From: Acidobacteriota bacterium
GTDB taxonomy: Bacteria > Actinomycetota > Actinomycetes > Actinomycetales > Microbacteriaceae
Assembly: GCA_019351995.1 (NCBI GenBank)
Contig: JABBOD010000010.1
Location: 1-64,000 of the forward strand
Direction: 5' to 3'
Length of the DNA stretch: 64,000 nt
This document shows positions 28,799 through 44,213 of the stretch, piece by piece (the stretch's first letter is position 1; the number at the start of each line of letters is the position of its first letter). The notes beneath the pieces are model-generated. The model was not told the origin of the DNA. It worked only from the letters and a program-made list of their open reading frames with translations, and did no database searches. A program made the position numbers and the translations under genes.

Positions 28799-28820
28799 GT
28801 GCACTCATGCAACTATTGCA
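28799..28820 (-). promoter_or_regulatory. MarR-type operator, site A
   Basis: Minus strand: TGCAA-TAG-TTGCA-TGAG-TGCAC. It lies in front of the reductase remnant and MarR 1, and 182 bp before the divergent ClC gene. The rest of the gap to 29001 holds no gene. Confidence 0.65.
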
Positions 28821-29001
28821 GAGACGCAGTAGGCGGCACAGACTTCCCACCGCGGGTCTCGACGTCGAACTGCCACCCGCCTCGTAGCCCGGCCGCCGCC
28901 CGCCCGTGCGAACCGTCGCACCACGGTGAACTGCCGCTACCGATCCCCTTGCCTAAGCCCAGGCGCACCACTCCCCGCATCACGACGACAGAGGAACAAC
29001 A

Positions 29002-30960
29002 TTGACGAACAGCCACGCACAACCTCGAGCACGGTGGATTCTCTCGATCACCGACCGGGTTGCCGGCGGCCTGCGAGGCTCCCGCTTCGGACTGTTCGGA
29101 ATCGCCGTCGTCGTCGGCGTCGCGTCCGGCATCGGAGCGGTGATCTTCAGAAACCTGATTTCCTTCTTCACATGGCTCGTGACCGGTGAATCCGAGTTCG
29201 GACAGGACGGATACGTCGGCAGTTCGCACTTGCCATGGCTCGGTCTCGGCTTCTTCGTGCTCATTCCTATCGTCGGCGGCCTGATCTACGGCCCGCTGGT
29301 CTACCGCTTCGCGCGCGAAGCACGGGGGCACGGTGTGCCCGAGGTGATGATCGCGGTCGCCGAGAACGGCGGGCGCATCCGACCCCAGGTTGCTGCCGTC
29401 AAAGCGCTGGCTTCCGCCGTGACCATCGCCACCGGCGGATCGGTTGGCCGGGAAGGCCCGATCGTGCAAATCGGGTCAGCACTGGCCTCCGGCCTGGGCC
29501 AATGGATTCGGATGCCCGAGAACCGTATGCGCATCCTCGTCGCCTGCGGCGCGGGGGGAGGAATCGCCGCCACCTTCAACGCCCCCGTCACCGGCGTCTT
29601 CTTCGGCGCCGAGATCATCCTGCGCGAACTCTCCGTCGAAGCGATGTTCGCGGTCATGCTCTCGGCGATGGTCGCCGATGCGGTGGCCATCCCTTTTCTG
29701 GGAGATCACGCATTCCTCACCGGGTTCCCCTCGGGAATTGCCCTCCACAACCCGAGCAACTACCTGCTGATCACTGTCCTCGCTGTGCTCGCCGCACTGA
29801 TCGGTCTCCTGTTCAAGACCGTTCTCTACACGATGGAAGACCTCTGGGATCGGATATGGAAGGGCCGCCCCGAATGGGCTCGTCCTGCCGTCGGAGGTCT
29901 TGTTCTCGGCCTCCTCCTCTTGGCGCTGCCACAGATGTATGGAGTCGGCTACCCGGTCATGTTCACCGCCATCAGCGGCGGCTACACGCTCTGGTTCCTC
30001 CTGATCTTGATGGTGGGCAAGATGCTGGCAACCAGCCTCACCCTCGGCATCGGCGGATCAGGAGGGATCTTCGCGCCGTCCCTGTTCATCGGAGTCACCG
30101 CCGGAATGGCATTCGGCATCACGGTCGACAGGGTGTTCGGACCCGCAGCGGGCAGCCCCGCGCTCTACGCTGCCGTCGCCATGGGTGCCGTATTCACCTC
30201 GGCCGCACGGGCACCACTGACTTCCCTGGCCAGCGTCGTTGAAATGACTGGCGACTTCACCCTCACCCTGCCGGTGATGCTGGCCGTTGCGATCGCCACC
30301 GCGGTCTCCCGAGGTCTGAGTTATGGCACGATCTACACCACGAAGCTGTTGCGCCGCGGGCAAGACATCGATCGCGCGGCACCCTGGCGAGCGTTCGCCG
30401 ATCTGAAAGCCTCGGAAGCGATGAGGCCTCTTGGCATCCGACTGGACCTCAACACCGCGCATCGAGGCGAGACCACCGAGCCGGTTACACTCCAGGGTCA
30501 CGTCAAGGTCAATCACGACCCCCAAGCGGTATTCACCACAGAACCGCTGGTCGACGTCCTCCGTCAGGTCCGCGAGTATGGACGCGATGGACTTCCCGTC
30601 CTGTCCGAGGACGGCCGCCACATCGAGGGCTGGATCACCAACCAGTCCGTGCTGGAGAAGGTGACGGAAGAACTCGGGGCACCCGGGCCACAGCTCGAGA
30701 ACGATGAGACAAGCAAAGTCAACGCGCCAGGATCATCGCGGAGCCAGCGCCCCTCCACGCCGCTCACGGGCTACCTCATCGCCGAGGTGACGCTGGCGAC
30801 GGATTCACCCGAGGTCGGCCAGAAGCTCGGCGCCGTGGCGTGGCCGGATGACTACATTCCGGTGTCATTCGTCCGCAGCGGTCGAGTTGGTGACCCGCAA
30901 CCTGGCACCGTATTGAAGGCCGGCGACCGGGTCAACCTACTCGCCCGCAGCGGCGACTGA
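29002..30960 (+). CDS. ClC chloride channel/transporter with CBS region
   Basis: A 652-residue ClC protein. The ion-binding motifs are GHGVPEVM (GxGxP), GGSVGREGPIVQIG (with the gating Glu) and GGIFAPSLFIG. The presence of the gating Glu leaves both channel and H+/Cl- antiporter modes open. About 11 helices span residues 30-440. The last ~200 residues form a cytoplasmic CBS-like and TrkA-C-like region ending AGDRVNLLARSGD. TTG start with GAGGAAC upstream. It is placed between the two MarR genes and may answer acid or ionic stress. Confidence 0.88.
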   Translation: MTNSHAQPRARWILSITDRVAGGLRGSRFGLFGIAVVVGVASGIGAVIFRNLISFFTWLVTGESEFGQDGYVGSSHLPWLGLGFFVLIPIVGGLIYGPLVYRFAREARGHGVPEVMIAVAENGGRIRPQVAAVKALASAVTIATGGSVGREGPIVQIGSALASGLGQWIRMPENRMRILVACGAGGGIAATFNAPVTGVFFGAEIILRELSVEAMFAVMLSAMVADAVAIPFLGDHAFLTGFPSGIALHNPSNYLLITVLAVLAALIGLLFKTVLYTMEDLWDRIWKGRPEWARPAVGGLVLGLLLLALPQMYGVGYPVMFTAISGGYTLWFLLILMVGKMLATSLTLGIGGSGGIFAPSLFIGVTAGMAFGITVDRVFGPAAGSPALYAAVAMGAVFTSAARAPLTSLASVVEMTGDFTLTLPVMLAVAIATAVSRGLSYGTIYTTKLLRRGQDIDRAAPWRAFADLKASEAMRPLGIRLDLNTAHRGETTEPVTLQGHVKVNHDPQAVFTTEPLVDVLRQVREYGRDGLPVLSEDGRHIEGWITNQSVLEKVTEELGAPGPQLENDETSKVNAPGSSRSQRPSTPLTGYLIAEVTLATDSPEVGQKLGAVAWPDDYIPVSFVRSGRVGDPQPGTVLKAGDRVNLLARSGD

Positions 30961-31031
30961 AGGGCACCGCGCGCTGGTGCTCGCAACTTGGCAGTCGAGC
31001 GAGGCGCGCGAGCAAGAGACCGGTGTACTGT

Positions 31032-31053
31032 TGCAACAGTTGCTGTATTGCAT
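31032..31053 (+). promoter_or_regulatory. MarR-type operator, site B
   Basis: TGCAA-CAG-TTGCT-GTAT-TGCAT, 28 bp before the MarR 2 start. It overlaps a perfect 12-bp palindrome, CTGTTGCAACAG (31028-31039). Confidence 0.7.
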
Positions 31054-31081
31054 CTAATCCATCAACGAGGAGAGACTCCCG

Positions 31082-31582
31082 ATGCCCCCGACCCCAGACG
31101 GCACCGTCCCTCACGCCCAACGCGTTGCCCGGAGGTTCGGGACGGCGGAGACGATCACGGCGTCGCGTGCACTCCTCGCAATCGTGGCTCGTTCGATGTC
31201 CGAGGCGCTCGAGCAGGTGACCCTCCCGCAGTTTCGCGTGTTGGTCGTGCTGAGCGGATCAGACCCCGTGCGCATGGGCGCGCTCGCCGCGGAGATGGGA
31301 GCCCTGCCCTCGACTTTCAGCCGCGTCATCGACCGAATGGTCGAGGGCGGCTGGGTCGAGCGGGTGCCGAGTCCCGAGAGCCGCCGGGAGGTGCTGATCA
31401 GACCGACCGCAGCCGGGCAGCAATTGGTACGGCGCGTCACGGAGAGGCGCCGAGACGAGATCGGGCGCGTCCTCGACACGCTTTCGGAAGCGGAGCAGCT
31501 GGCCGTCGGGGAGGCGTTCGCTCTCTTCGCCGATGCCTCAGGCGAACCGCCCCGTCAGGACCTCCTCGCTCTCGGCCTGTAG
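31082..31582 (+). CDS. MarR family regulator 2
   Basis: A 166-residue MarR protein with recognition helix LPSTFSRVIDRMVEGGWVE and wing SRREVLIRPTAAG. It is clearly paralogous to MarR 1 over its whole length (both end LLxLGL/I). GAGGAG precedes the ATG. Site B lies in its own promoter, so autoregulation is likely. The glycosidase gene follows after 40 bp and may be co-transcribed. Confidence 0.9.
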   Translation: MPPTPDGTVPHAQRVARRFGTAETITASRALLAIVARSMSEALEQVTLPQFRVLVVLSGSDPVRMGALAAEMGALPSTFSRVIDRMVEGGWVERVPSPESRREVLIRPTAAGQQLVRRVTERRRDEIGRVLDTLSEAEQLAVGEAFALFADASGEPPRQDLLALGL

Positions 31583-31622
31583 CACCGGTGTTCTGACCAC
31601 CAACGGAAGGGAACGTTCCATT

Positions 31623-33380
31623 GTGACCACGAACTCGAGGTTCCCACTCTTCGTCCTCCGCGACTACGCTGTCGCCGCAGACGGCGAGCGCGGCATGCTC
31701 GTCGGGCCTCGCGGTGATATCGCCTGGCTCTGTGCTCCCCGTTGGGAGTCGGACGCGATCTTCTCCAACCTCATCGGCGGCGGCGGAACCTACGCGGTGA
31801 CACCGGTCGCGGAGTCCTTCGTCTGGGGCGGCGTCTACGAACCCGGTTCGCTGATCTGGCGAAATCGCTGGACCACTCCAGACCAACAGATCGAGTGCCG
31901 CGACGCTCTTGCCTACCCAGGGCGCGCTCGCACCGCGATCATCCTGCGCAAGGTCACCTCCCAGGCGAGAGCGGCCGTGCGCATCGTGCTGGATCCCCGG
32001 GCCTGCTTCGGGGAGCACGGTTTGCGCGATGTGACGAAGCGGAACGGCGTGTGGATCGCTCGCTGCGGTGACCTCTATCTGCGCTGGACCGGCGCCGCTG
32101 AGGCGCGACGTCAGGCCGACGGTTCGCTCGCTTTCACTCTGACAGTGGAGGCCGGAACACCCCGCGACCTGGTGCTCGAAATCTCGGAGGAGCCTCTCGA
32201 AGGCGAGCTGGACGCCGATGAGCTCTGGCGCACGACCGAGATGGCCTGGGATGCCGTGGTTCCGGCCGTCTCAGGCACCCTGGCCGACGACGACGTGCGA
32301 CACTCGCTCGCCATCCTGCACGGGCTCACCACGCACGGGGGAGGAATGGTCGCCGGAGCGACAACGTCGTTGCCGGAGCGGTTCGGCGGCGCGAAGAATT
32401 ATGACTACCGCTACGCCTGGATCCGGGACCAGTGCTACGTCGGTCAGGCCGCCGCGCTGGTCGGCGATCTCCGGCTGTTGGATGACGCGGTCGCGTTCGT
32501 CTCCTCCAGAATCCTGGCCGACGGCGCCGATCTGAAACCGGCATACACGACCGACGGGGGCCCTGTTCCCGATGAGCGACATCTCGATCTGCCCGGATAT
32601 CCCGGAGGAGCCGACAAGGTCGGCAACTGGGTCAACCAGCAGTTCCAGCTCGACTCCCTCGGGGAGGCGCTTCTCCTCTTTGCAGCTGCCGCCCGACAAG
32701 AGCGACTGGATGAGACGGGCTCGGCGGCGGTGGCGGCGGCTGTCGACGTCATCCGGGAGCGCTATCGCACACCCGACGCCGGGATCTGGGAGCTCGAGGA
32801 CGAGTTATGGACCCATTCGCGACTGTCGTGTGTCGCCGGGTTGCGGAAGATCGCGAGCATCTCGACATCATCAGATGCCTCGGGGTGGTCGGTTCTCGCC
32901 GACGAGATCCTCGCCGACATTGGCACGACGAGCCTCCATCCCACCGGCCGCTGGAAGCGAGCGGTGTCGGATGACCGGGTCGATTCCGCCCTACTGATTC
33001 CGGCCGTGCGAGGAGCACTGCCGCCGTCGGATCCGCGTACGATCGCCACGCTTGAGTCGGCTCTGGCGGAGCTCGGCGATTCCGGTTACATGTATCGATT
33101 CCGAATGGACGGAGACGCTCCCTCCCAGGAGGAGGGCGCCTTCCTGCTCAGCGGATTCATGACCAGTCTGGCGCTCCATCAGCAGGGGCGTCACGTCGAG
33201 GCCGCCAGGTGGTTCGAACGCAACAGGGCCGCACGAGGCACGCCCGGGGTCTTCTCCGAGGAGTATGACGTCGGGCAGCGACAGATGCGCGGCAATCTTC
33301 CTCAGGCGTTCGTGCACGCACTGTTCATCGAGGCCGCCGCGACACTTGCGGGAAAGGAAGCGAGCCCCGTCGCCGGCTGA
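31623..33380 (+). CDS. glycoside hydrolase family 15 protein (trehalase/glucoamylase-like)
   Basis: A 585-residue protein. An N-terminal beta-sandwich (about 1-215) contains LVGPRGDIAWLCAPRWESDAIF. The (alpha/alpha)6 barrel follows with YDYRYAWIRDQCYVG, the GH15 substrate-site signature, and EEGAFLLSGF, which carries the catalytic Glu region. Actinobacterial members include trehalases and glucan hydrolases; trehalose cleavage would suit a stress island but is not proven. GTG start at 31623. A perfect palindrome, GGAACGTTCC, lies 3 bp before the start codon (31610-31619). Its 3' end overlaps the convergent hydrolase gene by 56 bp. Confidence 0.85.
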   Translation: MTTNSRFPLFVLRDYAVAADGERGMLVGPRGDIAWLCAPRWESDAIFSNLIGGGGTYAVTPVAESFVWGGVYEPGSLIWRNRWTTPDQQIECRDALAYPGRARTAIILRKVTSQARAAVRIVLDPRACFGEHGLRDVTKRNGVWIARCGDLYLRWTGAAEARRQADGSLAFTLTVEAGTPRDLVLEISEEPLEGELDADELWRTTEMAWDAVVPAVSGTLADDDVRHSLAILHGLTTHGGGMVAGATTSLPERFGGAKNYDYRYAWIRDQCYVGQAAALVGDLRLLDDAVAFVSSRILADGADLKPAYTTDGGPVPDERHLDLPGYPGGADKVGNWVNQQFQLDSLGEALLLFAAAARQERLDETGSAAVAAAVDVIRERYRTPDAGIWELEDELWTHSRLSCVAGLRKIASISTSSDASGWSVLADEILADIGTTSLHPTGRWKRAVSDDRVDSALLIPAVRGALPPSDPRTIATLESALAELGDSGYMYRFRMDGDAPSQEEGAFLLSGFMTSLALHQQGRHVEAARWFERNRAARGTPGVFSEEYDVGQRQMRGNLPQAFVHALFIEAAATLAGKEASPVAG

Positions 33381-34176
33381 ACCGTTCCGCCGCCTCCGAC
33401 TCACGTGGCGTGAGGAACTCCAGGATCGTCGGCCACGCCTCGACGATGCTCGTCGATGGATCCGACCAAGCCGAAGAGGTCCGGCTATGGCTGATCCGGT
33501 GCCGATACCACCTGGCATCCTCGGTATCTCCCGAACTGATGACGAGGGTCGAGGCGTCAACGTCGCCGAGGAGCGCGTGCCAGCCGGAGTCGGCGAGCGC
33601 GCGGTGGTCGAACTCGAGACCTGCCGCGTCGCCGAGTGCCACCCCGTCGAGCATTCGGCCCATTCGATCTGCCGCTCCCGGATGGTCGTCCAATTCTTCG
33701 AGGGGACGCAGGCGCTCGAGGCGTGCGTCGAGGGATCCCCCAGGCGCGGCGAGGCGCTCCCTGGTCGGCGCTGTCGGTTCGACCAACACGAGGCCCTCGA
33801 CCAGGTGCGGGTACCGGCCCGCGAGAGCTGTGGCGTAGAGGGCGCCGACTCCCCAGCCGACGACCCCGATTCGTCCGAAATCGATGGATGACACGGTGCT
33901 CGCGTTCGCCTCGATAGAACGCAGGTACTCATCGATGTCCGAGATCCAGCTCTCGACAGCATCGCCCTCGGGCATCGGATCGCTCCCGCCGTAGCCGGGA
34001 CGGTCCAGCACGATCACACGGACCCCGATTGTGGCCGTCACCGTCGGATCCGGATCGAAACCGCCAACACCGGGGCTCGGATGGCAGAACAGCACCAGGC
34101 GCGTCGCATCGGGATCGCCGAGGCCGGTGACACCCAGACGGCGTCCGTCCCTCAGTTCATGCTGGTGGTGCGTCAT
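33325..34176 (-). CDS. alpha/beta-hydrolase fold protein without nucleophile
   Basis: A 283-residue alpha/beta-hydrolase fold protein. The oxyanion region (CHPSPGVGGFD), the strand VIVLDRPGYGGSDP and the elbow GVVGWGVGALYA are recognisable. The elbow position that should be Ser, Asp or Cys is Gly (GWGVG), so normal hydrolase chemistry is unlikely; a binding or structural role is possible. The ATG overlaps the stop of the upstream SDR gene (ATGA), so the two are coupled. The 3' end overlaps the GH15 gene by 56 bp. The start at 34176 is taken over an upstream Arg-rich extension. Confidence 0.72.
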   Translation of the reverse strand: MTHHQHELRDGRRLGVTGLGDPDATRLVLFCHPSPGVGGFDPDPTVTATIGVRVIVLDRPGYGGSDPMPEGDAVESWISDIDEYLRSIEANASTVSSIDFGRIGVVGWGVGALYATALAGRYPHLVEGLVLVEPTAPTRERLAAPGGSLDARLERLRPLEELDDHPGAADRMGRMLDGVALGDAAGLEFDHRALADSGWHALLGDVDASTLVISSGDTEDARWYRHRISHSRTSSAWSDPSTSIVEAWPTILEFLTPRESEAAERFSRRRGSLPFPQVSRRPR

Positions 34177-35171
34177 GACCGTGCCCGCGCCGTCGTCCCG
34201 ATGAGCAGGACCGCGGCGACGAGGCCGGAGAGCGCGGCGACCGCGCCTCGGCGATGCTGGATGGCCCAGGTCTGAGGAGTAATGCTCCACGCCCGGCCGT
34301 CGAAATCGCCGTGCGCCCCGTGGTCTCCGGGCACCGGCTCATACAGGTTCGGACCGAGCATCGGCGACTTGTCGGACGTGTCCTGCTGCCCGGAGAATCC
34401 CGTCCGGGCCGAGACAAGATCGGAGATCCGGCTCGCGAATCGGTTGCCCAGAATCGTCATCACCGTCGACTCCCCGACCCAGGTGCGCCGTCGCGGACGC
34501 TGCGCCACGTCGGCGACGATCCTCGCGCAGACCTCCGGCTGGTAGATCGGAGGCACGGGCTGCGGATGCGCCGGGAGCGCCGACTTGACCCAGTCGAACT
34601 GCATCGTGTTCATGGCAGGCATATCCACCTGCGAGATTCGCACGCCCGATCGGTCGTGCATCAACTCGCCGAGAACGGACTCGGTGAATCCGGTGATGGC
34701 GTGTTTTGAGGCGCAGTACGCCGCTTGCAAGGGGATCCCGCGGTGTGCCAGAGCCGATCCGACCTGAACGATGTGTCCTCGATCCCGTGGGGCCATCCGG
34801 GTCAGCGCGGCCCGGGTCCCGTTGACGAATCCGATGAAGTCCACGGAGACGGCTCGTTCGAAATCATCGGCGTTCGTCTTCGCGAACTCGCCGAAGACTC
34901 CGACCATCGCGTTGTTGACCCAGAGATCGATCTCGCCAAGTTCGAACTCGATCTCGTCGGCCGCGCCCTCCACCTGGTTGCGGTCCGCAACATCCGTCGA
35001 GATTCCCAGTCCGCGCACGCCAGCAGCCTCGACATCGGCCACAGCCCCGTCCAGCCCGTCCTTCCCGCGCGCGAGGATGGCCACGTCGTAGCCCCTCCCC
35101 GCCAACTCGCGCACGATCGCGCGACCCAGTCCCGCCGTTCCTCCCGTCACCACTGCGACTTTGTTTGACAT
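34173..35171 (-). CDS. SDR oxidoreductase with C-terminal membrane anchor
   Basis: A 332-residue short-chain dehydrogenase. The cofactor motif is TGGTAGLG, VNNAM is present, and the catalytic set is complete: Ser in VQVGSALAHRG and YCASK. A ~75-residue tail follows the catalytic domain and ends in a hydrophobic helix (VAALSGLVAAVLLIG) with a basic end, which would anchor it to the membrane. Substrate unknown. The start MSNKVAVVTGG at 35171 is the natural N-terminus. It shares an ATGA overlap with the hydrolase-like gene. Site C (35229-35250) lies 58 bp upstream. Confidence 0.85.
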   Translation of the reverse strand: MSNKVAVVTGGTAGLGRAIVRELAGRGYDVAILARGKDGLDGAVADVEAAGVRGLGISTDVADRNQVEGAADEIEFELGEIDLWVNNAMVGVFGEFAKTNADDFERAVSVDFIGFVNGTRAALTRMAPRDRGHIVQVGSALAHRGIPLQAAYCASKHAITGFTESVLGELMHDRSGVRISQVDMPAMNTMQFDWVKSALPAHPQPVPPIYQPEVCARIVADVAQRPRRRTWVGESTVMTILGNRFASRISDLVSARTGFSGQQDTSDKSPMLGPNLYEPVPGDHGAHGDFDGRAWSITPQTWAIQHRRGAVAALSGLVAAVLLIGTTARARS

Positions 35172-35228
35172 CCGATCCTTCACTTCTCCTGCGAACCTCG
35201 AGGAGGCTCGTCCCAATGATTGCTCTTA

Positions 35229-35250
35229 CGCAAAGATTGCACACATGCAT
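35229..35250 (+). promoter_or_regulatory. MarR-type operator, site C
   Basis: CGCAA-AGA-TTGCA-CACA-TGCAT between the SDR gene and a divergent small gene. The ATG of the latter (35245) falls inside the site. Confidence 0.65.
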
Positions 35251-35628
35251 AGATTGTCGAAGAGCTCTCAGCAGACCCACAAGCGAAGACTGAGCACACC
35301 CCTAAGTACCGGCCTCGAGACGGCGAGACTCCTCTACGGAGCCGCCCAACTGGTCGCGCCGCGCACCGTTGCCCGAACCGCCCGCACCGAGACCGATCAA
35401 GAGTCGCTTCTGGTGCGCCGAGTCCTCGGAGCCCGGCATCTGGCGCAGGCCGCTCTCCTCATCCGTGGCGATTCGACGGCGCATCGCAAAGGCGCCGTCG
35501 TGGATGCCGCGCACGCGAGCTCGATGATCGCCTGGGCGATCACTCACCGGCGACGTCGTCGGGCTGCGCTCTTGAATGCACTCAGCGCGACATCCTTCGC
35601 CCTCGGCGAGCTTCTGGTGAGCCGTTAG
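35245..35628 (+). CDS. hypothetical protein with hydrophobic segments
   Basis: A 127-residue protein beginning MHRLSKSSQQTHKRR. It contains ARLLYGAAQLVAPRTVART and RRVLGARHLAQAALLIRG, then two moderately hydrophobic helices near the end (ASSMIAWAITHR and LLNALSATSFALGELL). No family is recognised. The ATG sits inside operator site C and has no ribosome site, so the message may be leaderless, or the true start may be a nearby TTG (35254). Divergent from the SDR/hydrolase pair. Confidence 0.55.
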   Translation: MHRLSKSSQQTHKRRLSTPLSTGLETARLLYGAAQLVAPRTVARTARTETDQESLLVRRVLGARHLAQAALLIRGDSTAHRKGAVVDAAHASSMIAWAITHRRRRRAALLNALSATSFALGELLVSR

Positions 35629-35720
35629 ATCCAGCACCTACGGGTCCGTCCTGCGTGACTGCCAAATCCTCCAAGTATCCTGCGAACCCCGGCGAGCACG
35701 TGGACCTATAGTTGCTAACT

Positions 35721-35742
35721 CGCAAAACTTGCATGGCTGCAT
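35721..35742 (+). promoter_or_regulatory. MarR-type operator, site D
   Basis: CGCAA-AAC-TTGCA-TGGC-TGCAT, 124 bp before the first gene of the dehydrogenase operon. Its left half matches site C. The 238-bp gap (35629-35866) contains no gene. Confidence 0.65.
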
Positions 35743-35866
35743 ATTTTGATTTGTTTCGGTGCAGGCAAAGACGTGCGAAAAGGCACTGTCCAGGAGCGTC
35801 CATGAAGCTGTGCACCTTCCCGCCGCGGTTGCGGCCACAGGGATCCTTTAAGCGACGTTGCACAAC

Positions 35867-36598
35867 ATGACGCCGACTCTCCTGGGCGTGGGTGGTTTCC
35901 CGGCCGCACTGACTGCGGTATCCGCCGCCTCGATTGTGATCGGTTTTGCCTGCGCCGTCGGCCTCGCCGTCGACGTAGGTCACCGCCCACAACCCATGCG
36001 CGTCATGTCCGTGGTGTGGCCGCTGACCGCGCTTTTCGGCGGTGTCCCATGGACCGCTTTCTACTACCGCTGGGCCCGTGCGCCCCGACGGGGATCGAAG
36101 GGACCCGAGAGCACCCACCCGCGGATTGTCGCTGTCGCGATCTCGACCAGTCACTGCGGGGCCGGATGCGCGCTCGCAGATCTCGTCGTCGAATGGCTCG
36201 TGTTCGCGGTGCCAGCCCTCGCAGTGGCAGGGGGTCTCGGTCTGATCTTCGATCAGCGGATCTTCGCGAGTTGGGTGCTCGACTTTGTCGCGGCTTTCCT
36301 GATCGGCATTGCCTTCCAGTACGCCGCGATCGCGCCCAGCCGCGGCATCCGTGGCTGGGCGGCCTGGAAAGCAGCCATCCGCGCCGATGCCGCGTCGATC
36401 GCCGCCTGGCAGATCGGCATGTACGGGGCCATGGCGATCGCACAGTTCGCTGTCTTCGGCGTCCTTTTCGGGGGTCAGGCCTCGGTCGCCAGCCCCGAGT
36501 TCTGGTTCGCCATGCAATGGGCGATGATCATCGGCTTCCTGACGGCATTTCCGGTGAACGCCCTGCTCATCCGTCGTGGGACCAAGGAGGCAATGTGA
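35867..36598 (+). CDS. DUF4396 membrane protein
   Basis: A 243-residue protein with six or seven hydrophobic segments. The hallmark STSHCGAGCALADLVVEW lies mid-protein (about residues 88-105); its His and two Cys could bind metal or heme (inference). DUF4396 proteins have no assigned function. It opens a tight operon in which each of the next three genes starts within the stop codon of the one before. A TTG three codons upstream is an alternative start. Confidence 0.78.
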   Translation: MTPTLLGVGGFPAALTAVSAASIVIGFACAVGLAVDVGHRPQPMRVMSVVWPLTALFGGVPWTAFYYRWARAPRRGSKGPESTHPRIVAVAISTSHCGAGCALADLVVEWLVFAVPALAVAGGLGLIFDQRIFASWVLDFVAAFLIGIAFQYAAIAPSRGIRGWAAWKAAIRADAASIAAWQIGMYGAMAIAQFAVFGVLFGGQASVASPEFWFAMQWAMIIGFLTAFPVNALLIRRGTKEAM

Positions 36599-37050
36599 GG
36601 AAGCGCACGATCCGTCGGCCGGTCCGCGGAATCGATCGGATCATCCGCAATGTCCGGCATGGGCGCTTCGAGCGTCTACTGTCCGGCATCACGGCGGCGG
36701 GAGCCGCAGTGACTACCGCCGAGATCTTCTTCGAGCACGATAAGGCCAGCTTCGGCAATCGGTGGATGTGGGCCCCCATCGCGATCGGACCACTCGGAGC
36801 TCTCGCCGGTCTGGCCGGGTACCGCAATCACCGGATGGCGAAGACTCTTCTGCCGGCGGCGTCGCTGGTGATCGTTGCGAACGGGGTGCAGGGCACCGTG
36901 CTGCACGCCCGCGGGATCGGGCAGAAGCCGGGTGGGTGGCGCAACTTCCGTTTCAACATGGAGATGGGGCCGCCGTTGATGGCGCCGCTGCTGGTGACGA
37001 TGGTCGGCGGGATGGGGCTGCTCGCCGCGATCCTCAGGCGCGAGCCGTGA
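36595..37050 (+). CDS. hypothetical membrane protein of dehydrogenase operon
   Basis: A 151-residue protein with a basic start (RKRTIRRPVRGIDRIIRN) and four hydrophobic stretches. A conserved-looking loop contains HARGIGQKPGGWRNFRFNMEMG; the His and the nearby EIFFEHDK could be ligands. No family recognised. GTG start overlapping the DUF4396 stop (GTGA). Its place next to a soluble FAD dehydrogenase suggests it helps form the membrane electron acceptor (inference). Confidence 0.65.
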   Translation: MRKRTIRRPVRGIDRIIRNVRHGRFERLLSGITAAGAAVTTAEIFFEHDKASFGNRWMWAPIAIGPLGALAGLAGYRNHRMAKTLLPAASLVIVANGVQGTVLHARGIGQKPGGWRNFRFNMEMGPPLMAPLLVTMVGGMGLLAAILRREP

Positions 37051-37673
37051 CGCGAGCCGTGCGGTTCCCGGGCTTCAACGTGCGCTCACAGTCGGATCAT
37101 TGGGACGACGCGACACGCGCCGTGATCGTCGGTCGGGTGAACGCCCTCCCCGCCGTGCGATTCTTCACGCCAGCTGAGGAGGCCGCGGCGAAGTGCCTGC
37201 TCGACCAGCTGGTGGATCAGCGAACTGAGCCGGGTTCCCCACGCGTCGACCTGGTGCGCATGGTGGACGCGCGGCTGGCCGAGAAGCAAACCGATGGCTG
37301 GCGCTACGACACGATGCCGCCGGACGGCGCTGCCTGGCAGCAGACCCTGGCAGCCCTCGACGAGGATTCGCAGCGCGATCACGGAGTCGGCTTCGCGCGT
37401 TGCACGTGGGAGGAGCAGCACGCGATGCTCGAAGCGTTTCGCGACGCGGACGACCCGAACTGGCACGGTCTTCCGCGATCGCAGGTCTGGAACCTCTGGA
37501 CCCGGTACGCGGCGACGGCGTTCTACTCGCATCCGGAGCTCTGGAACGAGATCGGCTTCTCCGGGCCCGCCTATCCGCGTGGGTACAAGAACCTCGGCAT
37601 CGACCGGCTCGAGTCCTACGAGGTGCACGACGCCGAACCGGGCGACGATCCGATGGCGGGGGGCACCGAGTGA
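37047..37673 (+). CDS. gluconate 2-dehydrogenase subunit 3 family protein
   Basis: A 208-residue protein of the Gluconate_2-dh3 family (FFTPAEEAAAKCLLDQLVDQ; later FYSHPELWNEIGFSGPAYPRGY). This family is the small chaperone or export subunit of flavin gluconate and sugar dehydrogenases. Those usually carry a Tat signal; here there is none, so the complex probably stays on the cytoplasmic face. GTG start overlaps the previous stop, and its own stop overlaps the start of the large subunit. Confidence 0.85.
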   Translation: MTRAVRFPGFNVRSQSDHWDDATRAVIVGRVNALPAVRFFTPAEEAAAKCLLDQLVDQRTEPGSPRVDLVRMVDARLAEKQTDGWRYDTMPPDGAAWQQTLAALDEDSQRDHGVGFARCTWEEQHAMLEAFRDADDPNWHGLPRSQVWNLWTRYAATAFYSHPELWNEIGFSGPAYPRGYKNLGIDRLESYEVHDAEPGDDPMAGGTE

Positions 37674-39301
37674 GCGACGTCCGGGACCGCAACGAGTCCG
37701 CGTGGTTGCTGACGAAGGACGGGTCGCGGATGCAGCACGGGCTGCGGGAGGACATGCGTCGTTTCGACGACACCGACGAGGTGGATGCCGTCATCATCGG
37801 GGCAGGCGCCGGTGGGGGCACCATGACGCAGCGCCTTGCTCGGCTGGGCTGGAAGATCGTCACCTTCGACGCGGGCCCGTTCTGGGTCCCGGAGGCCGAC
37901 TGGGTCAGCGACGAGGCCGGATCACACAATCTGTACTGGACAGAGCCGCGTCAAATCGGCGGCGGCGATCCTGTTCCGCTCGGCTCGAACAACTCCGGCC
38001 GCGGCGTCGGCGGATCGATGGTGCACTACGCCGGGTACACGCCGCGCTTCCATCCGAGCGACTTCCGCACGATGACCCTCGACGGGGTCGGAGCGGACTG
38101 GCCAATCGCCTACCCGGACCTCAAGCCGTACTACGAGCTGATCGAAGGCGAGCTCCCCGTCTCCGGAGAGCACTGGCCGTGGGGAGATCCGCACGATTAC
38201 CCGTACCGACCCCAGCCGGTCGGCGGCAACGGCGAGCTGTTCCTGCGCGGTGCCCTTGCAGCCGGCATCGAGGCGCACGTCGGCCCAGTCGCCATCTCCA
38301 ACGGACGCTTCGGCAACCGCCCGCACTGCATCTATCGCGGCTTCTGCTTGCAGGGCTGCAAGGTCAATGCGAAGGCCTCCCCGCTCATCACCCATATCCC
38401 GGACGCGCTCGCTCACGGAGCCGAGATCCGTCCGGACTCGATGGTCACCCGAATCGGTATCGACGAGTTGACAGGTCGCGCCACCGGGGTGCATTACATC
38501 CGTGACGGGCTCGAGCGCTTCCAGCGCGCGCGAACTGTGATCGTGGCGGGCTACTCCATCGAGACCCCGCGTCTCCTCCTCAACTCGACGTCGGCGCGCT
38601 TCCCGAACGGGCTCGCGAACGACTTCGACCAGGTGGGCCGCTACCTCATGGTTCAAGGCGCACCCCAGACCGCGGGACGGTTCGAGGCCGAAGTGCGCAT
38701 GTTCAAAGCGCCGCCCCCGGAGGTCAGCAGCGAGCAGTTCTACGAGACCGACCCCCACAAGCCGTACAAGCGCGGATTCTCGATCCAGACCGTTTCACCG
38801 CTGCCGATTACCTGGGCCGAACATGTGATGGCCCAAGGCCGCTGGGGCGGAGAGTTCCGTGACTACATGTCGGACTACGTGCACTGGGCGTGCCTCGGAG
38901 CACTGTGCGAGTTCCTCCCGCAGCCCGACAACCGCGTCACGCTCGCCGACGAGAAGGACCGCCACGGCATGCCGGTCGCGCACTTCTCCTACACCCGGTG
39001 CGACAACGACCGTCAGCTGATGTCCGCCGCCACCGAGGTGATGGAACGGATCCTGAAAGCGGCGGGCGCGGACGAGGTCATGACGATCAACCGCAACGCG
39101 CATCTGGTGGGCGGAGCCCGAATGGCCGCAGACGAGCAGCACGGAGTCGTCGATCGCGACTGCCGGTCGTTCGCCGTGCCGAATCTGATGATCACCGACG
39201 GCAGTGTGCTGCCGACTCAGGGCAGCGCAAATCCGGCCCTCACCATCATGGCCGTAGCGGCCCGCGCCGCGGACCGCCTGATCGACCGACCGATCGACTG
39301 A
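37670..39301 (+). CDS. GMC oxidoreductase, Fe-S sugar/alcohol dehydrogenase large subunit
   Basis: A 543-residue GMC flavoprotein. The FAD motif is AVIIGAGAGGGTMTQRLA-like near residue 40. HCIYRGFCLQGC gives a C-x5-C-x3-C pattern, the spacing of the 3Fe-4S cluster ligands in FAD glucose and gluconate dehydrogenases. The active-site region near the end reads NRNAHLVGGARM and then LPTQGSANPALTIMA. With subunit 3 just upstream it should oxidise a sugar, aldonate or alcohol and pass electrons to a membrane carrier, but no cytochrome c subunit is present. GTG start, GTGA overlap. Confidence 0.87.
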   Translation: MSDVRDRNESAWLLTKDGSRMQHGLREDMRRFDDTDEVDAVIIGAGAGGGTMTQRLARLGWKIVTFDAGPFWVPEADWVSDEAGSHNLYWTEPRQIGGGDPVPLGSNNSGRGVGGSMVHYAGYTPRFHPSDFRTMTLDGVGADWPIAYPDLKPYYELIEGELPVSGEHWPWGDPHDYPYRPQPVGGNGELFLRGALAAGIEAHVGPVAISNGRFGNRPHCIYRGFCLQGCKVNAKASPLITHIPDALAHGAEIRPDSMVTRIGIDELTGRATGVHYIRDGLERFQRARTVIVAGYSIETPRLLLNSTSARFPNGLANDFDQVGRYLMVQGAPQTAGRFEAEVRMFKAPPPEVSSEQFYETDPHKPYKRGFSIQTVSPLPITWAEHVMAQGRWGGEFRDYMSDYVHWACLGALCEFLPQPDNRVTLADEKDRHGMPVAHFSYTRCDNDRQLMSAATEVMERILKAAGADEVMTINRNAHLVGGARMAADEQHGVVDRDCRSFAVPNLMITDGSVLPTQGSANPALTIMAVAARAADRLIDRPID

Positions 39302-39320: not shown

Positions 39321-41153
39321 ATGACTACTGTCAGCAAGTTCGTCATCGAACGGATTCAGGAGTGGGGCGTCACCCGAGTGTTCGGATTCCCCGGTGATGG
39401 CATCGGAGAGTTCGACGGAGCCTTGGGAGCCGCCGACCGCGCCGGTCATGGTTTCGAATACATCCGTCCGACGCACGAGGAGATCTGCTCCCTGATGGCG
39501 ACCGCCCACGCGAAGTTCACCGGTGAGGTCGGAGTCTGCTTCGCAACATCGAGTCCCGGTGCCTTCCACATGCTCAACGGACTGTACGACGCGAAGATGG
39601 ACAATCAACCCGTCGTCGCCGTCGTCGGACAGCAGGGCCTCGCAGCACTGGGCACCTTCACTCAACAGGAAAGCAACCTCGAGCGCACCTTCGCCGACGT
39701 CGCCGCCTATGTGCAGACCATCGTCACCCCCGATCAGGCTCAAGCCGTCGTCGATACGGCATTCCGCACCGCGATCGCTCTGCGCCAACCGACGGTGATC
39801 GTACTGCCGCATGACGTCCAGGGGATGGATGTCGAATCACTCAGCCCCAAGAACTGGGTCTCCCGGTCGAGCGCTGTGCCGCCGTCGACGGCGATCACGC
39901 CCCCGCTCGCTGAGCTGCAGAAGGCAGCAGATCTCATCAACGCCGGAAGGCGGGTAAGCCTGCTTGTGGGCGCCGGAGCGGAAGGAGCGGGCGACGAGGT
40001 CCTCGCCCTGGCCACGCGAATCGGAGCGGGCATCATCACCGCCCTTCGCGGCAAGCAGGTCATCTCCTCGGATGTGCCCTTCCACACGCAGCAACTCGGA
40101 CTTCTGGGGTCCCTCCCGAGCCTGCACCAGATGCAGCGCTGCGACACGTTGGTGATGCTTGGGACCAACTATCCGTACGGGCAGTTCCTCCCTGCCAGCG
40201 GGCAGGCACGCGCTGTCCAGGTGGATCTGAACCCCCAGCAGATGGGGCTCCGCTATCCGACCGAGGTGAACCTGTGGGGCGACGTCAAGGCCACCCTCAC
40301 CGCGTTGCTTCCCCTCATCCACGAGACCACCGATCGTTCCTGGCAAGACGACATCGCGGAGGAAATGGTCGGATGGGAGCGCGAGATGGAAGCTCAGGCG
40401 CTGCTGGAGTATCCGGAAGGCGCCAACCCGCGGCGGGTGTTCCACGAACTCAACCTGCGGCTTCCGGACGACGCAATCGTGACGGCGGACGCCGGGACGA
40501 CCGCCGACTGGTACGGCCACCACATCCGGCTCCGGAAGCAGATGAAAGGCGATCTCTCCGGTCGGCTGGCCACCATGCTCGCGTCGATGCCCTACGCCGT
40601 CGCCGCCAAGTTCGCCTACCCGGAGCGACCAGTCATCTGCACCATTGGCGATGGCGCATTCCAGATGCTCGGCATGAACGAACTGATCACGATCAAGAAG
40701 TACCTCACGCAGTGGCAGGATCCGCAGTTCATCATCATGGTGCTACACAACGATGACCTTGCCCAGGTTTCATGGGAGATGCGCACCGAGGATGGAAACC
40801 CGGTGTGGCGCGGATCTCAAGACATCGAATCGATCGACTACGCAGGCTGGGCCGAGCTCGTGGGATTCCAAGCGATCCGAGTCAGGACCGACGACGAGAT
40901 CGGGCGGGCATGGGATGCCGCATTCGCCCATCACGGGGTCACGCTCATCGATGCGTACGTCAGCAAAGACGTTCCCCCCCTGCCGGCTCACATCACGGCC
41001 GAGTACGCGAAAAACATGGCCCTGGCACTGCTGAAAGGCGACCGCTCCGAGTTCCAGGTGATCCGTGACTCGGCGGAGGCGCTCGCGTCCGAGACCGTCG
41101 AACGGGTCAAGGGTGCCCTGCACCTCGGCCACGACGACCCGCAGAACGACTGA
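39321..41153 (+). CDS. thiamine-diphosphate enzyme, pyruvate oxidase-like
   Basis: A 610-residue ThDP enzyme of the pyruvate oxidase/acetolactate synthase group. The catalytic Glu is in THEEICSLMA (about residue 53), the middle domain binds FAD or nucleotide (LLVGAGAEGAG), and the ThDP motif is GDGAFQMLGMNELITI...N. The tail is longer than in acetolactate synthase. A PoxB-type role, turning pyruvate into acetate and CO2 with electrons to quinone, fits its position 19 bp after the dehydrogenase. The substrate is not certain. GGGAG ribosome site. Confidence 0.85.
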   Translation: MTTVSKFVIERIQEWGVTRVFGFPGDGIGEFDGALGAADRAGHGFEYIRPTHEEICSLMATAHAKFTGEVGVCFATSSPGAFHMLNGLYDAKMDNQPVVAVVGQQGLAALGTFTQQESNLERTFADVAAYVQTIVTPDQAQAVVDTAFRTAIALRQPTVIVLPHDVQGMDVESLSPKNWVSRSSAVPPSTAITPPLAELQKAADLINAGRRVSLLVGAGAEGAGDEVLALATRIGAGIITALRGKQVISSDVPFHTQQLGLLGSLPSLHQMQRCDTLVMLGTNYPYGQFLPASGQARAVQVDLNPQQMGLRYPTEVNLWGDVKATLTALLPLIHETTDRSWQDDIAEEMVGWEREMEAQALLEYPEGANPRRVFHELNLRLPDDAIVTADAGTTADWYGHHIRLRKQMKGDLSGRLATMLASMPYAVAAKFAYPERPVICTIGDGAFQMLGMNELITIKKYLTQWQDPQFIIMVLHNDDLAQVSWEMRTEDGNPVWRGSQDIESIDYAGWAELVGFQAIRVRTDDEIGRAWDAAFAHHGVTLIDAYVSKDVPPLPAHITAEYAKNMALALLKGDRSEFQVIRDSAEALASETVERVKGALHLGHDDPQND

Positions 41154-41160
41154 AACGCCC

Positions 41161-42276
41161 ATGCGGATCGAATCGATCGAACTGCGTTTCTACCAGATCC
41201 CAACCAGCACCGAGGGCGAACCGCAGCCGGAAAGCGACGGAACGGCCGAATGGGACAACACGGGCGTGCTGGTCGTGCACGTCCGTGCCGGCGGCGTGGA
41301 AGGCCTCGGGTATGCCTACACTTCCCCCGCCGCGCTGACCGTCGCACGTGAGACCCTCGCTGGCCTCATCGTGGGCTCGGACCACCTCGCCACGACCAAG
41401 AACTTCTGGCAGATGGTCGCGGCGGTGCGGAACATCGGATGGCCGGGAGTCAGCGCGAGCGCGATCTCGGCGATCGACGTCGCCCTGCACGACCTCAAAG
41501 CCCGCACTCTCGAGGTCTCGTTGCTGGACCTCGAGGGCGCGGCGCGTGATCGTGTCATGGCCTACGGAAGCGGTGGATTCACCAGCTACTCGGTCCCCCA
41601 ACTGCAGCGCCAACTTGCCGCCTGGGCCGCTGAGGGACTGCGGGCCGTGAAAATGAAGGTCGGCACCCATCCCGCCGACGACCCCGCGCGCGTCACCGAC
41701 GCCCGCGCCGCCATCCCGGACACTGTGGAGCTATTCGTCGATGCCAACGGTGCCTACTCGCGGAAGCAAGCGCTCGGCTTGGCGGAACGCTTCGCCCCCT
41801 CGAGGGTGACGTGGTTCGAAGAGCCGGTCTCGAGCGATGATCTGACGGGGCTCCGGATGCTCCGCGATCGCGGTCCCGCGGGGATGCAGATCGCCGCAGG
41901 CGAATATGGCTACCTCCCTGCCTCGTTCCACCGACTACTCGCGACGGGTGCCGTCGACACCCTCCAAGCGGATGCCACGCGATGCGGCGGAGTCACCGGC
42001 TTTCGTCTCGCCGCCGCCATGGCGACCGGCGCCGGCGTCCCCCTCAGCGCGCACACGGCTCCGGCCATCCACGCATCGCTTGCATCGGCTTTACCGAACG
42101 TGGTGCACGTGGAGTACTTCCACGACCATGTGCTCGTCGAAGGCATCCTGTTTGACGGAGTCCCTCGTCTTGACGCTGGCGATCTGGTTCCCGACCGCAC
42201 GGTGCCCGGCCATGGGCTCACCCTCAAAGACGTCGATGCAGAGCCGTACCTGGTCGCCTCCTGGCGAGCGAACTGA
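41161..42276 (+). CDS. enolase-superfamily enzyme (mandelate racemase/muconate lactonizing type)
   Basis: A 371-residue protein with the capping domain (1-120) and a barrel carrying VKMKVG (KxK acid/base lysines), the metal ligands in DANGAY, EEPVSS and AGEYGY, and a C-terminal AHTAPAIHASL. The His-rich end fits a sugar-acid dehydratase or racemase more than a cycloisomerase. Starting 7 bp after the PoxB-like gene, it should act on the same sugar-acid route. It is the last gene of the operon; transposase and integrase debris follow. Confidence 0.85.
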   Translation: MRIESIELRFYQIPTSTEGEPQPESDGTAEWDNTGVLVVHVRAGGVEGLGYAYTSPAALTVARETLAGLIVGSDHLATTKNFWQMVAAVRNIGWPGVSASAISAIDVALHDLKARTLEVSLLDLEGAARDRVMAYGSGGFTSYSVPQLQRQLAAWAAEGLRAVKMKVGTHPADDPARVTDARAAIPDTVELFVDANGAYSRKQALGLAERFAPSRVTWFEEPVSSDDLTGLRMLRDRGPAGMQIAAGEYGYLPASFHRLLATGAVDTLQADATRCGGVTGFRLAAAMATGAGVPLSAHTAPAIHASLASALPNVVHVEYFHDHVLVEGILFDGVPRLDAGDLVPDRTVPGHGLTLKDVDAEPYLVASWRAN

Positions 42277-42465: not shown

Positions 42466-42471
42466 GGAAAC

Positions 42472-42898
42472 GAGTCAACCAAAGGCTCAGCATTCCCGAA
42501 AGCCCCGAACGGTGCCACTCCTCGACGATGCGGGGAAGGTCGTCCAACCGCTCTCAGATCGAGGACCGGACGAGATCCTGTTCTCGAACGCTTCGGACGG
42601 CATGCGGTTGCTGTCGAACTGGCGTCGAGCCACCAACTGGCCTCGATACGGCCGGGGCCGCCGCGTGCACGACCTCCGCCACACTGCGGCGACGATGTGG
42701 ATCCAGAACGGTGTCGACATCAAGACCGTTCAGAACTGGCTCGGGCACGCTTCCGCGAAGCTGACGCTCGACACCTACGCGCATGACATGGGAACGAACG
42801 CCGACATCGCCTCGATCACCCTGATGAACACCGCTCTCAGTCCAAACGGGGTACGCGGGGTAAGCGCACAGAAAGCTGGGAATGACAAAGTAGTCTGA
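42472..42898 (+). pseudogene. phage-type tyrosine integrase 3' fragment
   Basis: About 130 codons of the C-terminal catalytic domain remain. They show RTVPLLDDAG, then the HDLRHTAATMWIQNG box (His and Arg), the LGHASAKLTLDTYAH box (His and the nucleophile Tyr), and a tail. The N-terminal DNA-binding part and the first catalytic Arg are gone. It lies 21 bp before tRNA-Thr, a common integration target, and is probably what is left of an integrated element. Confidence 0.8.
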
Positions 42899-42919
42899 AA
42901 GCCCGGGAATCCGGGGCGC

Positions 42920-42993
42920 GCCCTGTTAGCTCAGTTGGCCAGAGCACCGCTCTTGTAAAGCGGGGGTCGTCGGTTCGAATCCGACACGGGGCT
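42920..42993 (+). tRNA. tRNA-Thr (anticodon TGT)
   Basis: A 74-nt cloverleaf. The acceptor GCCCTGT pairs with ACGGGGC with one G-U, the D arm is GCTC...GAGC, and the anticodon stem loop CCGCT-CTTGTAA-AGCGG reads TGT. The T arm contains GGTTCGAATCC. CCA is not encoded. Confidence 0.93.
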
Positions 42994-43022
42994 CTTTGAA
43001 AATAGCCGGTCAGAGGCCGGTT

Positions 43023-43570
43023 TCAGCCTTGGAGCTGCGCACCCGAGTAGTTCTTCGTCGCGCCGCCCGTGGTCGTCACGGTGACGTGACCCGTGATGGC
43101 CCCGTTGGGGTTGGTGGTGGGTCACCAGGCGGTCCAGGTCCCGTCCTCGACGGTCGCGACGAAAGTCTTGCCCGAGTCCGCAATCGACACGGACGCGACG
43201 TCGGCGCCAGCCGGTCCCTCGACGTAGGTCAATCCGCTGGCGCCATCGCCAAGGCTGCCGGCGCTGTCGACGGCGATCTCGTCGAGTCCGACCGGCTTCG
43301 GCGAGGTCGCCGGGTCGCCGATGGTCTCCGACAGCCCCTTCGCGTCGGAACCGTCGAGGCCATGCACCAGGTCTGCCCGGCAGACGCCGTACGAGTCCTG
43401 CCGATGGCGGTCAGGGTCCCCGCCCAGCTGGCCAGAGAAGCTGCCGACAGCGGACCGGTTGCCGACAGCGACCCGCAGCGGGTGGTGAGCACAGCTCCTG
43501 CAGTCGCAACGCCGAGCGCCAGGACTGCCGCCGCGATCCCCACGAGTTGCCGGGGGGACGGGGGCGGTGC
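43023..43570 (-). pseudogene. decayed single-span membrane protein
   Basis: Minus-strand fragments in different frames read as one protein. A membrane helix (GIAAAVLALGVATAGAVL) is followed, after a frame change, by DSYGVCRADLVHGLDGSDAK and onward to DGTWTAW. A TGA then interrupts before PTTNPNGAITGHVTVTTTGG and a final stop at 43023. A TGG-to-TGA change would restore the last join. At least one frameshift and one nonsense change are present. The function was probably that of a secreted or anchored protein paired with the sigma factor. Confidence 0.65.
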
Positions 43571-43574
43571 AACG

Positions 43575-43953
43575 GTGCGGGATGAACGAGCGTCGACGTT
43601 TCACCCGGGTGAGGCGCATGGCGCAGCGAGCTCGGGTGACCCCGAGGACGATGGCGGCATCGGGCGCGCTGAGATCGTCCCAGACATGGAGAGCGAGCAC
43701 TTCCTGATCCACAGGACCGAGTGCCCGCCACGCGGCCGACAGGTCGATCAGCTGCACTGCGGCAGCGAAGTCGTCGATTTCCGAGGGGGCTGGGACCCAA
43801 CCCCTGCCGCCACGTTCTGCTGCCGCTGCACGCCTCGGCGACGATGTCATCCGCAACGAGCGGATGAGCGCGACGGCGCACGAAGCGCAGCACGTCCGGA
43901 TACGTCGCTTCGTACATCGCGGTGAAGCCGGCTGACGATTGGAGGGACATCGA
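43575..43953 (-). pseudogene. decayed ECF sigma factor
   Basis: The minus strand starts MSLQSSAGFTAMYEATYPDV and continues LRFVRRRAHPLVADDIVAEA, a normal region 2 opening. The frame then changes, and region 4 appears as AWRALGPVDQEVLALHVWDD with VTRARCAMRLTRVKRR. About 45 residues that normally join regions 2 and 4 are missing, so an internal deletion as well as a frameshift is likely. Confidence 0.7.
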
Positions 43954-43985
43954 ACCTCTCTCTGCTCGCGGAAACACTCATACAT

Positions 43986-44191
43986 GTCCGGCCGCTCCGC
44001 GACTGCAACACCATCACCCGATGACTTCTCTCCTTTCAGAGGCCCGTCGTCTCCCTCCGTCCTCCGACGCAGAGCGCCCGAGCATCCTCATCAGAAACTG
44101 CCGTGTCCCACCGCCACGTCGCTCGTTCCGACCTCCGGCGCGGCTCCTTCATGGCATTCTCCTGTGAGCTCCAGATCTTTCAATGTGGATA
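43986..44191. other. gap without a recognisable gene
   Basis: This part of the 346-bp space before ctaD shows no coding frame, RNA gene or repeat I can support. The regulatory site begins at 44192. Confidence 0.5.
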
Positions 44192-44213
44192 TGCAACAGT
44201 TGCACGAGTGCGA
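44192..44213 (+). promoter_or_regulatory. MarR-type operator, site E
   Basis: TGCAA-CAG-TTGCA-CGAG-TGCGA, 87 bp before ctaD. Two more TTGCA words follow at 44218 and 44229. Confidence 0.65.

Follow-up and report, generated by a model that had tools for sequence, protein, structure and literature searches.

Do five short DNA sites that recur among the genes of one bacterial locus form a single regulon, and which of the two regulators encoded nearby would read them? The question is raised by a stretch of 64,000 nucleotides (positions 1 to 64,000 of contig JABBOD010000010.1, assembly GCA_019351995.1), which comes from a genome of the family Microbacteriaceae (below, the family). We call this stretch the window and give all positions in its numbering. 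The genome searched for the motif comprises 2.88 Mb. Regions fetched from other genomes carry labels starting with L, genomes labels starting with G. A reading of the letters alone (the sequence-only reading) had proposed that five near-identical sites of 22 bp (YGCAA-N3-TTGCW-N4-TGCRH) define a regulon run by two paralogous MarR regulators, MarR1 and MarR2. All five sites lie where that reading placed them, at 28799 on the minus strand and at 31032, 35229, 35721 and 44192 on the plus strand, with the spacers it gave. A search of the whole genome returns exactly these five matches, all inside the window, and none for the reversed pattern. Hence, within the source genome the motif does not recur broadly at unrelated loci, the outcome that had been named as speaking against a regulon. 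We consider it likely that the five sites are operators of MarR repressors related to Rv1404 of Mycobacterium tuberculosis, which would silence a stress island until a ligand arrives.

The site is real, although the 22 bp cover only a part of it. When the five sites are aligned together with their flanks, a palindrome of 31 bp with a second outer arm emerges: RTGYA-N4-TGCAA-CWR-TTGCA-N4-TRCAY. We name the five 31-mers operators A (28799 to 28829), B (31023 to 31053), C (35220 to 35250), D (35712 to 35742) and E (44183 to 44213). To call them near-identical was too strong, as they agree pairwise at 17 to 22 of 31 positions. In each 31-mer, a 14-bp dyad (RTGYA-N4-TGCAA) is followed, after 3 bp, by its mirror image; the centres of the two dyads are 17 bp apart. 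The central 13 bp are the best conserved portion among 29 sites. The score by which these 29 sites were picked counts the outer arms, and we therefore repeated the arm test on sites selected by the core alone. In 13 such sites, the outer arms match at 7.46 of 10 positions compared to a null of 3.53 (standard deviation 0.41). The spacing is equally constant. Among 31 core sites (from the window and the 25 loci of close orthologs described below), an outer arm with at least 4 of 5 letters stands at spacer 4 on 38 of 62 sides; none of the other spacers between 0 and 12 reaches more than 5 of 62. A partner dyad is found at a gap of 3 bp for 16 of 45 14-bp dyads, and at no other gap between 0 and 11. 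The operators thus have the two adjacent palindromes at fixed spacing that characterize AesR-like MarR operators, for which binding by two dimers is suggested.

A perfect match of the five sites to their own pattern is circular, because the pattern was derived from these five. Since the pattern was built from the sites, it was tested on genomes picked via MarR homology. Support that is not circular comes from the uniqueness of the motif in the genome, and from its recurrence at MarR promoters in genomes that were fetched by MarR homology and not by the motif. If up to two mismatches to the 22-bp pattern are allowed, the window contains 12 matches (1.01 expected from shuffles), several of which are one and the same palindrome counted again from the opposite strand. 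The 31-bp pattern with up to two mismatches occurs at seven places in the whole genome, with none for the reversed control. Five of these places are operators A to E; the other two, C39:10279 and C46:7281, look like chance matches by their sequence. Across species the 22-bp pattern has matches in 43 of 299 family genomes. Many of these are due to one conserved sequence, CGCAAYTTTTGCATCATTGCGC, which looks unrelated to the operator, and the 22-bp pattern alone is therefore not specific across species. What stands of the regulon claim is a putative MarR-type operator confined to one locus of the source genome.

How closely are the operators linked to this kind of regulator? A homolog of MarR1 (E at most 1e-12) is present in 43 of the 299 family genomes. 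We fetched 40 regions around the better homologs, 25 of which contain close orthologs (at least 130 bits). The operator core (at least 9 of 10 letters within -400 to +20 of the MarR start) occurs in 9 of the 25 promoters of close orthologs, where 0.19 are expected. It also occurs in one of nine promoters of mid-distance MarRs (0.02 expected) and in three of seven promoters of far MarRs (0.04 expected). The training set of a 31-bp weight matrix comprised 28 sites, namely the five of the window, which score 33.7 (A), 34.0 (B), 26.5 (C), 25.6 (D) and 31.2 (E), and 23 from the close loci. Counting scores of at least 15 as matches, the matrix finds five in the window, 34 in the 25 close loci, six in the other 15 loci, five in 12 class-level loci, three in five plasmid loci and none in 27 unrelated loci. 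For the same six sets, in this order, 50 column-permuted matrices yield means of 0.00, 0.12, 0.02, 0.04, 0.04 and 0.12. The three plasmid matches repeat sites of L095 and L102, which lie on the same plasmids. The unrelated control, 460 kb without a single match, consists of 27 distant loci from a two-protein-alignment scan of named genomes, all of them proteobacterial by their titles.

For an independent test, further family genomes were sampled, and five of them had a match. Four of these were examined (G760, with a distant match, was left out). The genera of these four genomes are absent from the training of the matrix. In each of the four, a site scoring at least 15 lies no more than about 600 bp from the MarR gene: G734 (26.1), G693 (31.2), G682 (16.2) and G705 (26.4). 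The site lies on the start side of MarR in G734 and G693 and between MarR and a CLC gene in G705. In G682 it lies behind the MarR gene, and its letters are identical to those of the genus-mate L107. Among 29 loci from outside the family, sites that score at least 15 and lie no farther than 500 bp from the MarR gene are found only with the helices STFSR or TTFTR (L145, 20.0; L146, 23.0; L147, 16.0). No such match is found with SSFSR (L149), STLTR (L148), PSATGR (the Rv1404 type, 0 of 6), STAMR (0 of 10), STATR/STATQ (0 of 5) or STTGR/SSTGR (0 of 3). The clade itself is present in a minority of Microbacteriaceae genomes and, within the same class, in a small number of further families.

Both regulators of the window carry a MarR domain (Pfam PF01047, 65.1 and 55.0 bits, cut-off 24.6). 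MarR1 (161 amino acids; 27893 to 28378, minus strand) and MarR2 (166 amino acids; 31082 to 31582, plus strand) are 48% identical over their alignment. They have the core of the recognition helix (STFSR..DRM) and the wing (SRREVLI) in common. The earlier statement that they share their recognition helices is right for this core and wrong for the flanks of the helix, which differ (NPSTFSRFVDRM vs LPSTFSRVIDRM). In a tree of 44 rows with many weak forks, MarR1 and MarR2 are grouped in 0% of 200 bootstrap trees; they therefore look like old paralogs or separate arrivals, as far as the weak forks allow. That both use the same sites is the simplest reading and a plausible one. Only MarR2 has an operator at its own promoter (B, 28 bp before the gene). 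Neither protein contains a cysteine. The reactive cysteine of OhrR-type regulators is thus missing, and a thiol switch is therefore disfavoured.

Two relatives of these regulators lack the recognition helix and the wing and keep the dimer ends. They are encoded at L093:638-1108 and L102:3-449 (both on the plus strand; the latter is the same gene as L140:24999-25412), each with an intact MarR gene no more than about 10 kb away. Operator-like sites lie upstream of these paralogs, one with a matrix score of 35.0 and a weak one (13.4) about 370 bp away. The two proteins pair in the tree (96/94) as well as in the alignment. Among the 44 MarRs aligned and the four from the new genomes, the helix is missing in these two only. 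Such paralogs are possibly anti-repressors. One could go further and imagine a mobile cassette in which two old MarR paralogs act on the same twin-dyad operators. The pair of dyads would then be a switch with two inputs, each half occupied by a homo- or heterodimer, and a helix-less paralog would serve as operator-controlled anti-repressor, making the switch bistable. We regard this scenario as speculative and improbable.

Several results weigh against operators of MarR repressors as drawn here. An operator is missing from the promoter of MarR1, where the nearest site is 420 bp away. The strict core test fails at 16 of the 25 close MarR promoters. Of these failing promoters, L101, L109 and L114 have degenerate or single-dyad sites by eye, and none is visible at L103 and L111, which are of the STFSR type. 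The matrix counts are partly circular, as 23 of the 34 matches in close loci are training sites. The link between helix and operator is not strict within the family, where sites accompany the helices STLTR (G705, 26.4), STMSR (L120, 23.3), STVSR (L131, 21.6) and SNATR (L127, 20.4). A scan with the sigma-70 consensus finds no promoter at sites A to D, and the coverage of the -10 box is therefore argued from a -10-like hexamer alone. L152 has a nearly core-only site upstream of MarR, which favours the central dyad and fits one central dimer no less well than two dimers. Finally, the physiological role discussed below is drawn from gene content and one distant relative.

Some of these points have led us to consider other explanations. 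Instead of two dimers, a single dimer could occupy the TGCAACWGTTGCA dyad in the centre, and the outer arms (RTGYA/TRCAY) could be contacts of the wing or of the -10 box. The high conservation of the central 13 bp and the site in L152 agree with this explanation, and so does the overlap of the outer arm with a -10-like hexamer in 8 of 23 promoters. It accounts less well for outer arms that are conserved at a fixed spacer on both sides, and for the single 14-bp dyads without the central core seen by eye at L101, L109 and L114. A sister group of MarRs with the SNATR helix (L127:9906-9936 and upstream in L129) has TTGCG-N4-CGCAA dyads before its genes, again by eye, which are perhaps a second operator type. 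Together with the single dyads, they favour the 14-bp dyad as the putative binding unit. Furthermore, AesR is reported to bind two palindromes that lie next to each other (PMC13413800). We lean to two dimers on each 31-mer and consider one central dimer unlikely. A related question is who uses the operators. MarR2 could be their sole user, with MarR1 as a bystander that has a separate target. The own-promoter site at MarR2 alone, the distance between MarR1 and its nearest site and the ungrouped position of the two proteins in the tree would all fit. Yet MarR1 has retained the STFSR core and the SRREVLI wing, and the 29 loci outside the family have sites within 500 bp only at MarRs of the STFSR and TTFTR types. 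That MarR2 acts alone is conceivable but doubtful.

Alternatively, the sites could belong to another regulator borne on the island and their linkage to MarR genes could be incidental. The 16 promoters of close orthologs without a strict core can be cited for this, as can the in-family sites near MarRs with different helices. Sites in the MarR promoters of many genera are difficult to reconcile with an incidental linkage, their palindromes are of the type bound by MarR dimers, and most sites lie close to a MarR gene. The latter emerged from a relaxed 31-bp pattern, which was run on 12 genomes selected because they carry the MarR; a site was already known in most of them. Of its 24 places, 21 fall within 15 kb of a MarR gene and three, in G226, G153 and G090, do not. 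Reversing this relaxed pattern yields four places across the 14 genomes searched, two congeners without the MarR among them. We think another regulator very unlikely. Chance or base composition could be invoked too, as the pattern was constructed from the sites themselves. It is refuted by the absence of reversed matches in 2.88 Mb, by cores in 9 of 25 promoters against 0.19 expected and by the sites in all four new genomes examined, and we give it practically no weight.

We return to MarR repressors on the five operators and ask how they could act. Among 44 MarR promoters, 23 have a site scoring at least 13 within -330 to +40. In 8 of these 23 promoters, TGTANNNT lies in the upstream arm as seen from the gene; the downstream arm contains it in none. 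At operator B, the -10-like hexamer is GTGTACTGT, of the type TANNNT, and lies in the left arm (GTG-TACTGT); at operator D, TATAGT adjoins the left edge. In the window, scans for sigma-70 promoters and terminators give no excess over shuffles (2 vs 1.4 and 4 vs 6.5), and the sigB-like pattern GTTT-N14-18-GGGTA has no match. In the mechanism that we propose, MarR2 and probably also MarR1 would bind the five operators, with two dimers on each 31-bp operator, one per 14-bp dyad. At autoregulated promoters, the operator would start near the -10 box and reach to around +20, and the bound repressor would block RNA polymerase. The island would be silent in the absence of a signal. A small ligand and not a thiol oxidant would free the repressors, although the signal is a guess. 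Release would lead to the joint expression of the CLC gene, MarR2 and the GH15 gene, the SDR and hydrolase genes, the DUF4396/GMC/TPP (thiamine pyrophosphate)/enolase operon and a second ctaD copy. MarR2 would thus be autoregulated. Again as a guess, the island may help the cell to withstand ionic, acid or osmotic stress that weighs on the terminal oxidase as well.

Which genes do the operators face? The sequence-only reading had assigned site A to MarR1. It lies between the gene of a CLC chloride channel/exchanger with CBS and TrkA_C domains (29002 to 30960, plus strand) and a decayed open reading frame upstream of MarR1. Because A is 172 bp from the CLC start and 420 bp from MarR1, it is better assigned to CLC. 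The CLC retains GREGP. In the alignment to 1kpl, however, an isoleucine stands where ClcA has its inner proton glutamate, so that the protein may be a channel instead of an exchanger. On the other side of A, a stretch of about 400 bp on the minus strand (28392 to 28790) resembles a decayed gene. The in-frame part that was scanned has no Pfam match, and PDB comparison gives no convincing match. A nitroreductase identity for the reading frame behind site A is unsupported by either comparison.

Operator B is followed by MarR2 and by a GH15 glycoside hydrolase with a trehalase-like N-domain (31533 to 33380, plus strand). The latter reading frame overlaps the end of MarR2, and GH15 probably shares its transcript. 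Operator C stands between the divergent gene of an SDR-family oxidoreductase (34173 to 35171, minus strand), 48 bp away, and a small open frame without Pfam match (35161 to 35628, plus strand). An alpha/beta hydrolase gene lies downstream of the SDR gene (33325 to 34176, minus strand). Since the small frame overlaps operator C, its true start is probably TTG 35254, or ATG 35245 inside C. Operator D lies 115 bp before an operon on the plus strand. This operon encodes a DUF4396 protein (35858 to 36598), a small membrane-like protein without Pfam match (36595 to 37050), a protein of the gluconate 2-dehydrogenase subunit 3 family (37047 to 37673; scanned as 36969-37673) and a GMC oxidoreductase (37670 to 39301; scanned as 37400-39301). 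They are followed by a TPP enzyme (39321 to 41153; NCBIfam PRK08273 above cut-off, with pyruvate oxidases as runner-up models) and an enolase-superfamily (MR/MLE) protein (41161 to 42276). Operator E lies 86 bp before the second copy of ctaD, which encodes subunit I of an aa3 cytochrome oxidase (44300 to 46048, plus strand). A pyridoxamine-phosphate-oxidase-like protein is encoded behind ctaD (46124 to 46549, plus strand). Elsewhere in the window, at 60402 to 60457, there is an msiK cis-regulatory RNA (RF01747; 58.5 bits, gathering score 33).

The regulon seems to travel as a block. Two congeners, G066 and G130, are both without the MarR; the relaxed 31-bp pattern finds one place in G130 and none in G066. 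Their similarity to the window ends at 27,708 to 27,710 and resumes at 42,619 to 42,659, within an integrase remnant. The intervening 14.9 kb or so, with sites A to D and both MarR genes, are continued from neither side in either congener. Site E lies beyond tRNA-Thr and outside this segment. G066 has both flanks on one contig, with a different insert of about 1.8 kb between them (ArsR- and cation-efflux-like by reading). G130 has its flanks on separate contigs, and its empty site is therefore less certain. The right edge of the segment holds the integrase remnant, the C-terminal part of a tyrosine recombinase (42488 to 42898, plus strand), and tRNA-Thr (TGT; 42920 to 42994, plus strand). The remnant is kept in the congeners, which together with the different insert in G066 suggests an insertion hotspot. 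Exact repeats of the last 20 to 40 bases of tRNA-Thr, as island ends, do not occur in the window. Relatives of individual island genes do exist in the genus; a TPP gene in G066, for instance, has 77% DNA identity. Sequence comparison thus bears out the predicted operator, its architecture, its linkage to the MarR clade, its confinement to a single locus of the source genome and the lack of a continuation into the A to D segment in two congeners.

What could such a regulon be good for? The second ctaD is 96% identical in protein sequence to the other copy of the genome (G000:C61:93154-94824). On the DNA level, the copies are 98.6% identical over 44,380 to 45,989 (1,610 bp), and the first 80 bases and the promoter cannot be aligned. 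This suggests a recent gene conversion, after which the second copy would have kept its own regulated promoter. In the other genomes, we listed the 33 nearest called open reading frames within 400 bp of sites and scanned ten of them against Pfam. The scanned neighbours include CtaG (L092, L097), a Na+/H+ antiporter (L092), a penicillin-binding protein (L097), an aminotransferase (L105) and ABC ATPases (L092; L097, with a CBS domain; L102, of the MalK type); two of the ten have no Pfam match. CLC genes stand behind sites in several loci, and a CLC with at least 45% identity is present in 9 of the 25 close loci. GH15-SDR operons with sites occur in two class-level genomes (L174, L176). A Rhodococcus plasmid has a MarR-SDR-GH15-TPP-enolase neighbourhood, but no operator match of at least 15. 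Taken together, these genes agree with a balance of ions, pH and osmolarity in addition to the terminal oxidase. An acid, ionic or osmotic role is a tentative suggestion, somewhat less probable than not, and other stresses are possible too.

How does this regulon compare to known systems? The sequence-only reading knew of no described system with this content, which was too strong: Rv1404 is the closest solved relative, and a MarR on two side-by-side palindromes, AesR, has already been described. No described system with the same operator or gene content was found among the matches listed, in a search with most subscription papers outside it. The operator core, searched as the exact string TGCAACTGTTGCA only, is in none of the papers searched, with subscription papers again mostly outside. 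No paper was found for MarR with DUF4396, and nothing relevant for MarR with GMC or CLC among the matches listed.

Among solved chains, Rv1404 (2nyx) is by far the nearest to both MarRs (E values of 7e-31 and 1e-28), with 110 and 103 bits compared to 46 and 51 bits for the next chain. The recognition helix and the operator type are not the same: the helix of Rv1404 reads PSATGR and that of our MarRs PSTFSR, and none of the six PSATGR-type MarRs among the 29 loci outside the family has a match of at least 15 within 500 bp. Most of the Rv1404-type loci L150, L151, L153, L154, L156 and L158 share, by eye, an upstream element resembling ATAGTAT-N3-TAGGAAATA, perhaps the operator of the Rv1404 type. 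Rv1404 is described as an acid-stress regulator of Rv1405c in papers that cite it; according to PMC13002591, the target is adjacent to the regulator gene. The reported target is a methyltransferase, and there is none among the island proteins scanned.

AesR of Corynebacterium glutamicum is an autoregulated actinobacterial MarR that has two adjacent palindromes, as in our operators. One homodimer followed by a pair is suggested to bind there (PMC13413800), and the neighbours of its gene include dsbA and ccdA. The consensus, ACTATG-N3-CATAGTCGACTA-N7-TAGTCG, differs from RTGYA-N4-TGCAA-N3 here. In addition, deletion of AesR is reported to alter genes of aromatic degradation, stress, resistance and the envelope. 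MalR, a stress regulator of the MarR family from the same species, has a palindromic motif, too. This motif is AT-rich and has 66 peaks (PMC6536590), compared to five local sites here.

A similar set of genes is found on a plasmid of Frondihabitans sp. PAMC 28766 (NZ_CP014514.1), which carries a MarR ortholog with an operator (matrix 35.2). CLC, GH15, GMC/gluconate 2-dehydrogenase subunit 3, a small membrane protein and ctaD fragments are neighbours. By annotation alone, this set differs from ours in its location on a plasmid, in a ctaD that is in pieces and in a MarR gene that overlaps a cytochrome oxidase assembly gene. The plasmid is judged to be the same record as G284:C2 (L095), and hence not an independent case. 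An autoregulated MarR with local targets is a known kind of system. What we describe is a well-supported local MarR regulon and not a new kind. It adds an exact candidate operator for a MarR subclade for which we found no description, and one local switch that would link chloride and proton transport, the terminal oxidase and an operon of GMC and TPP enzymes.

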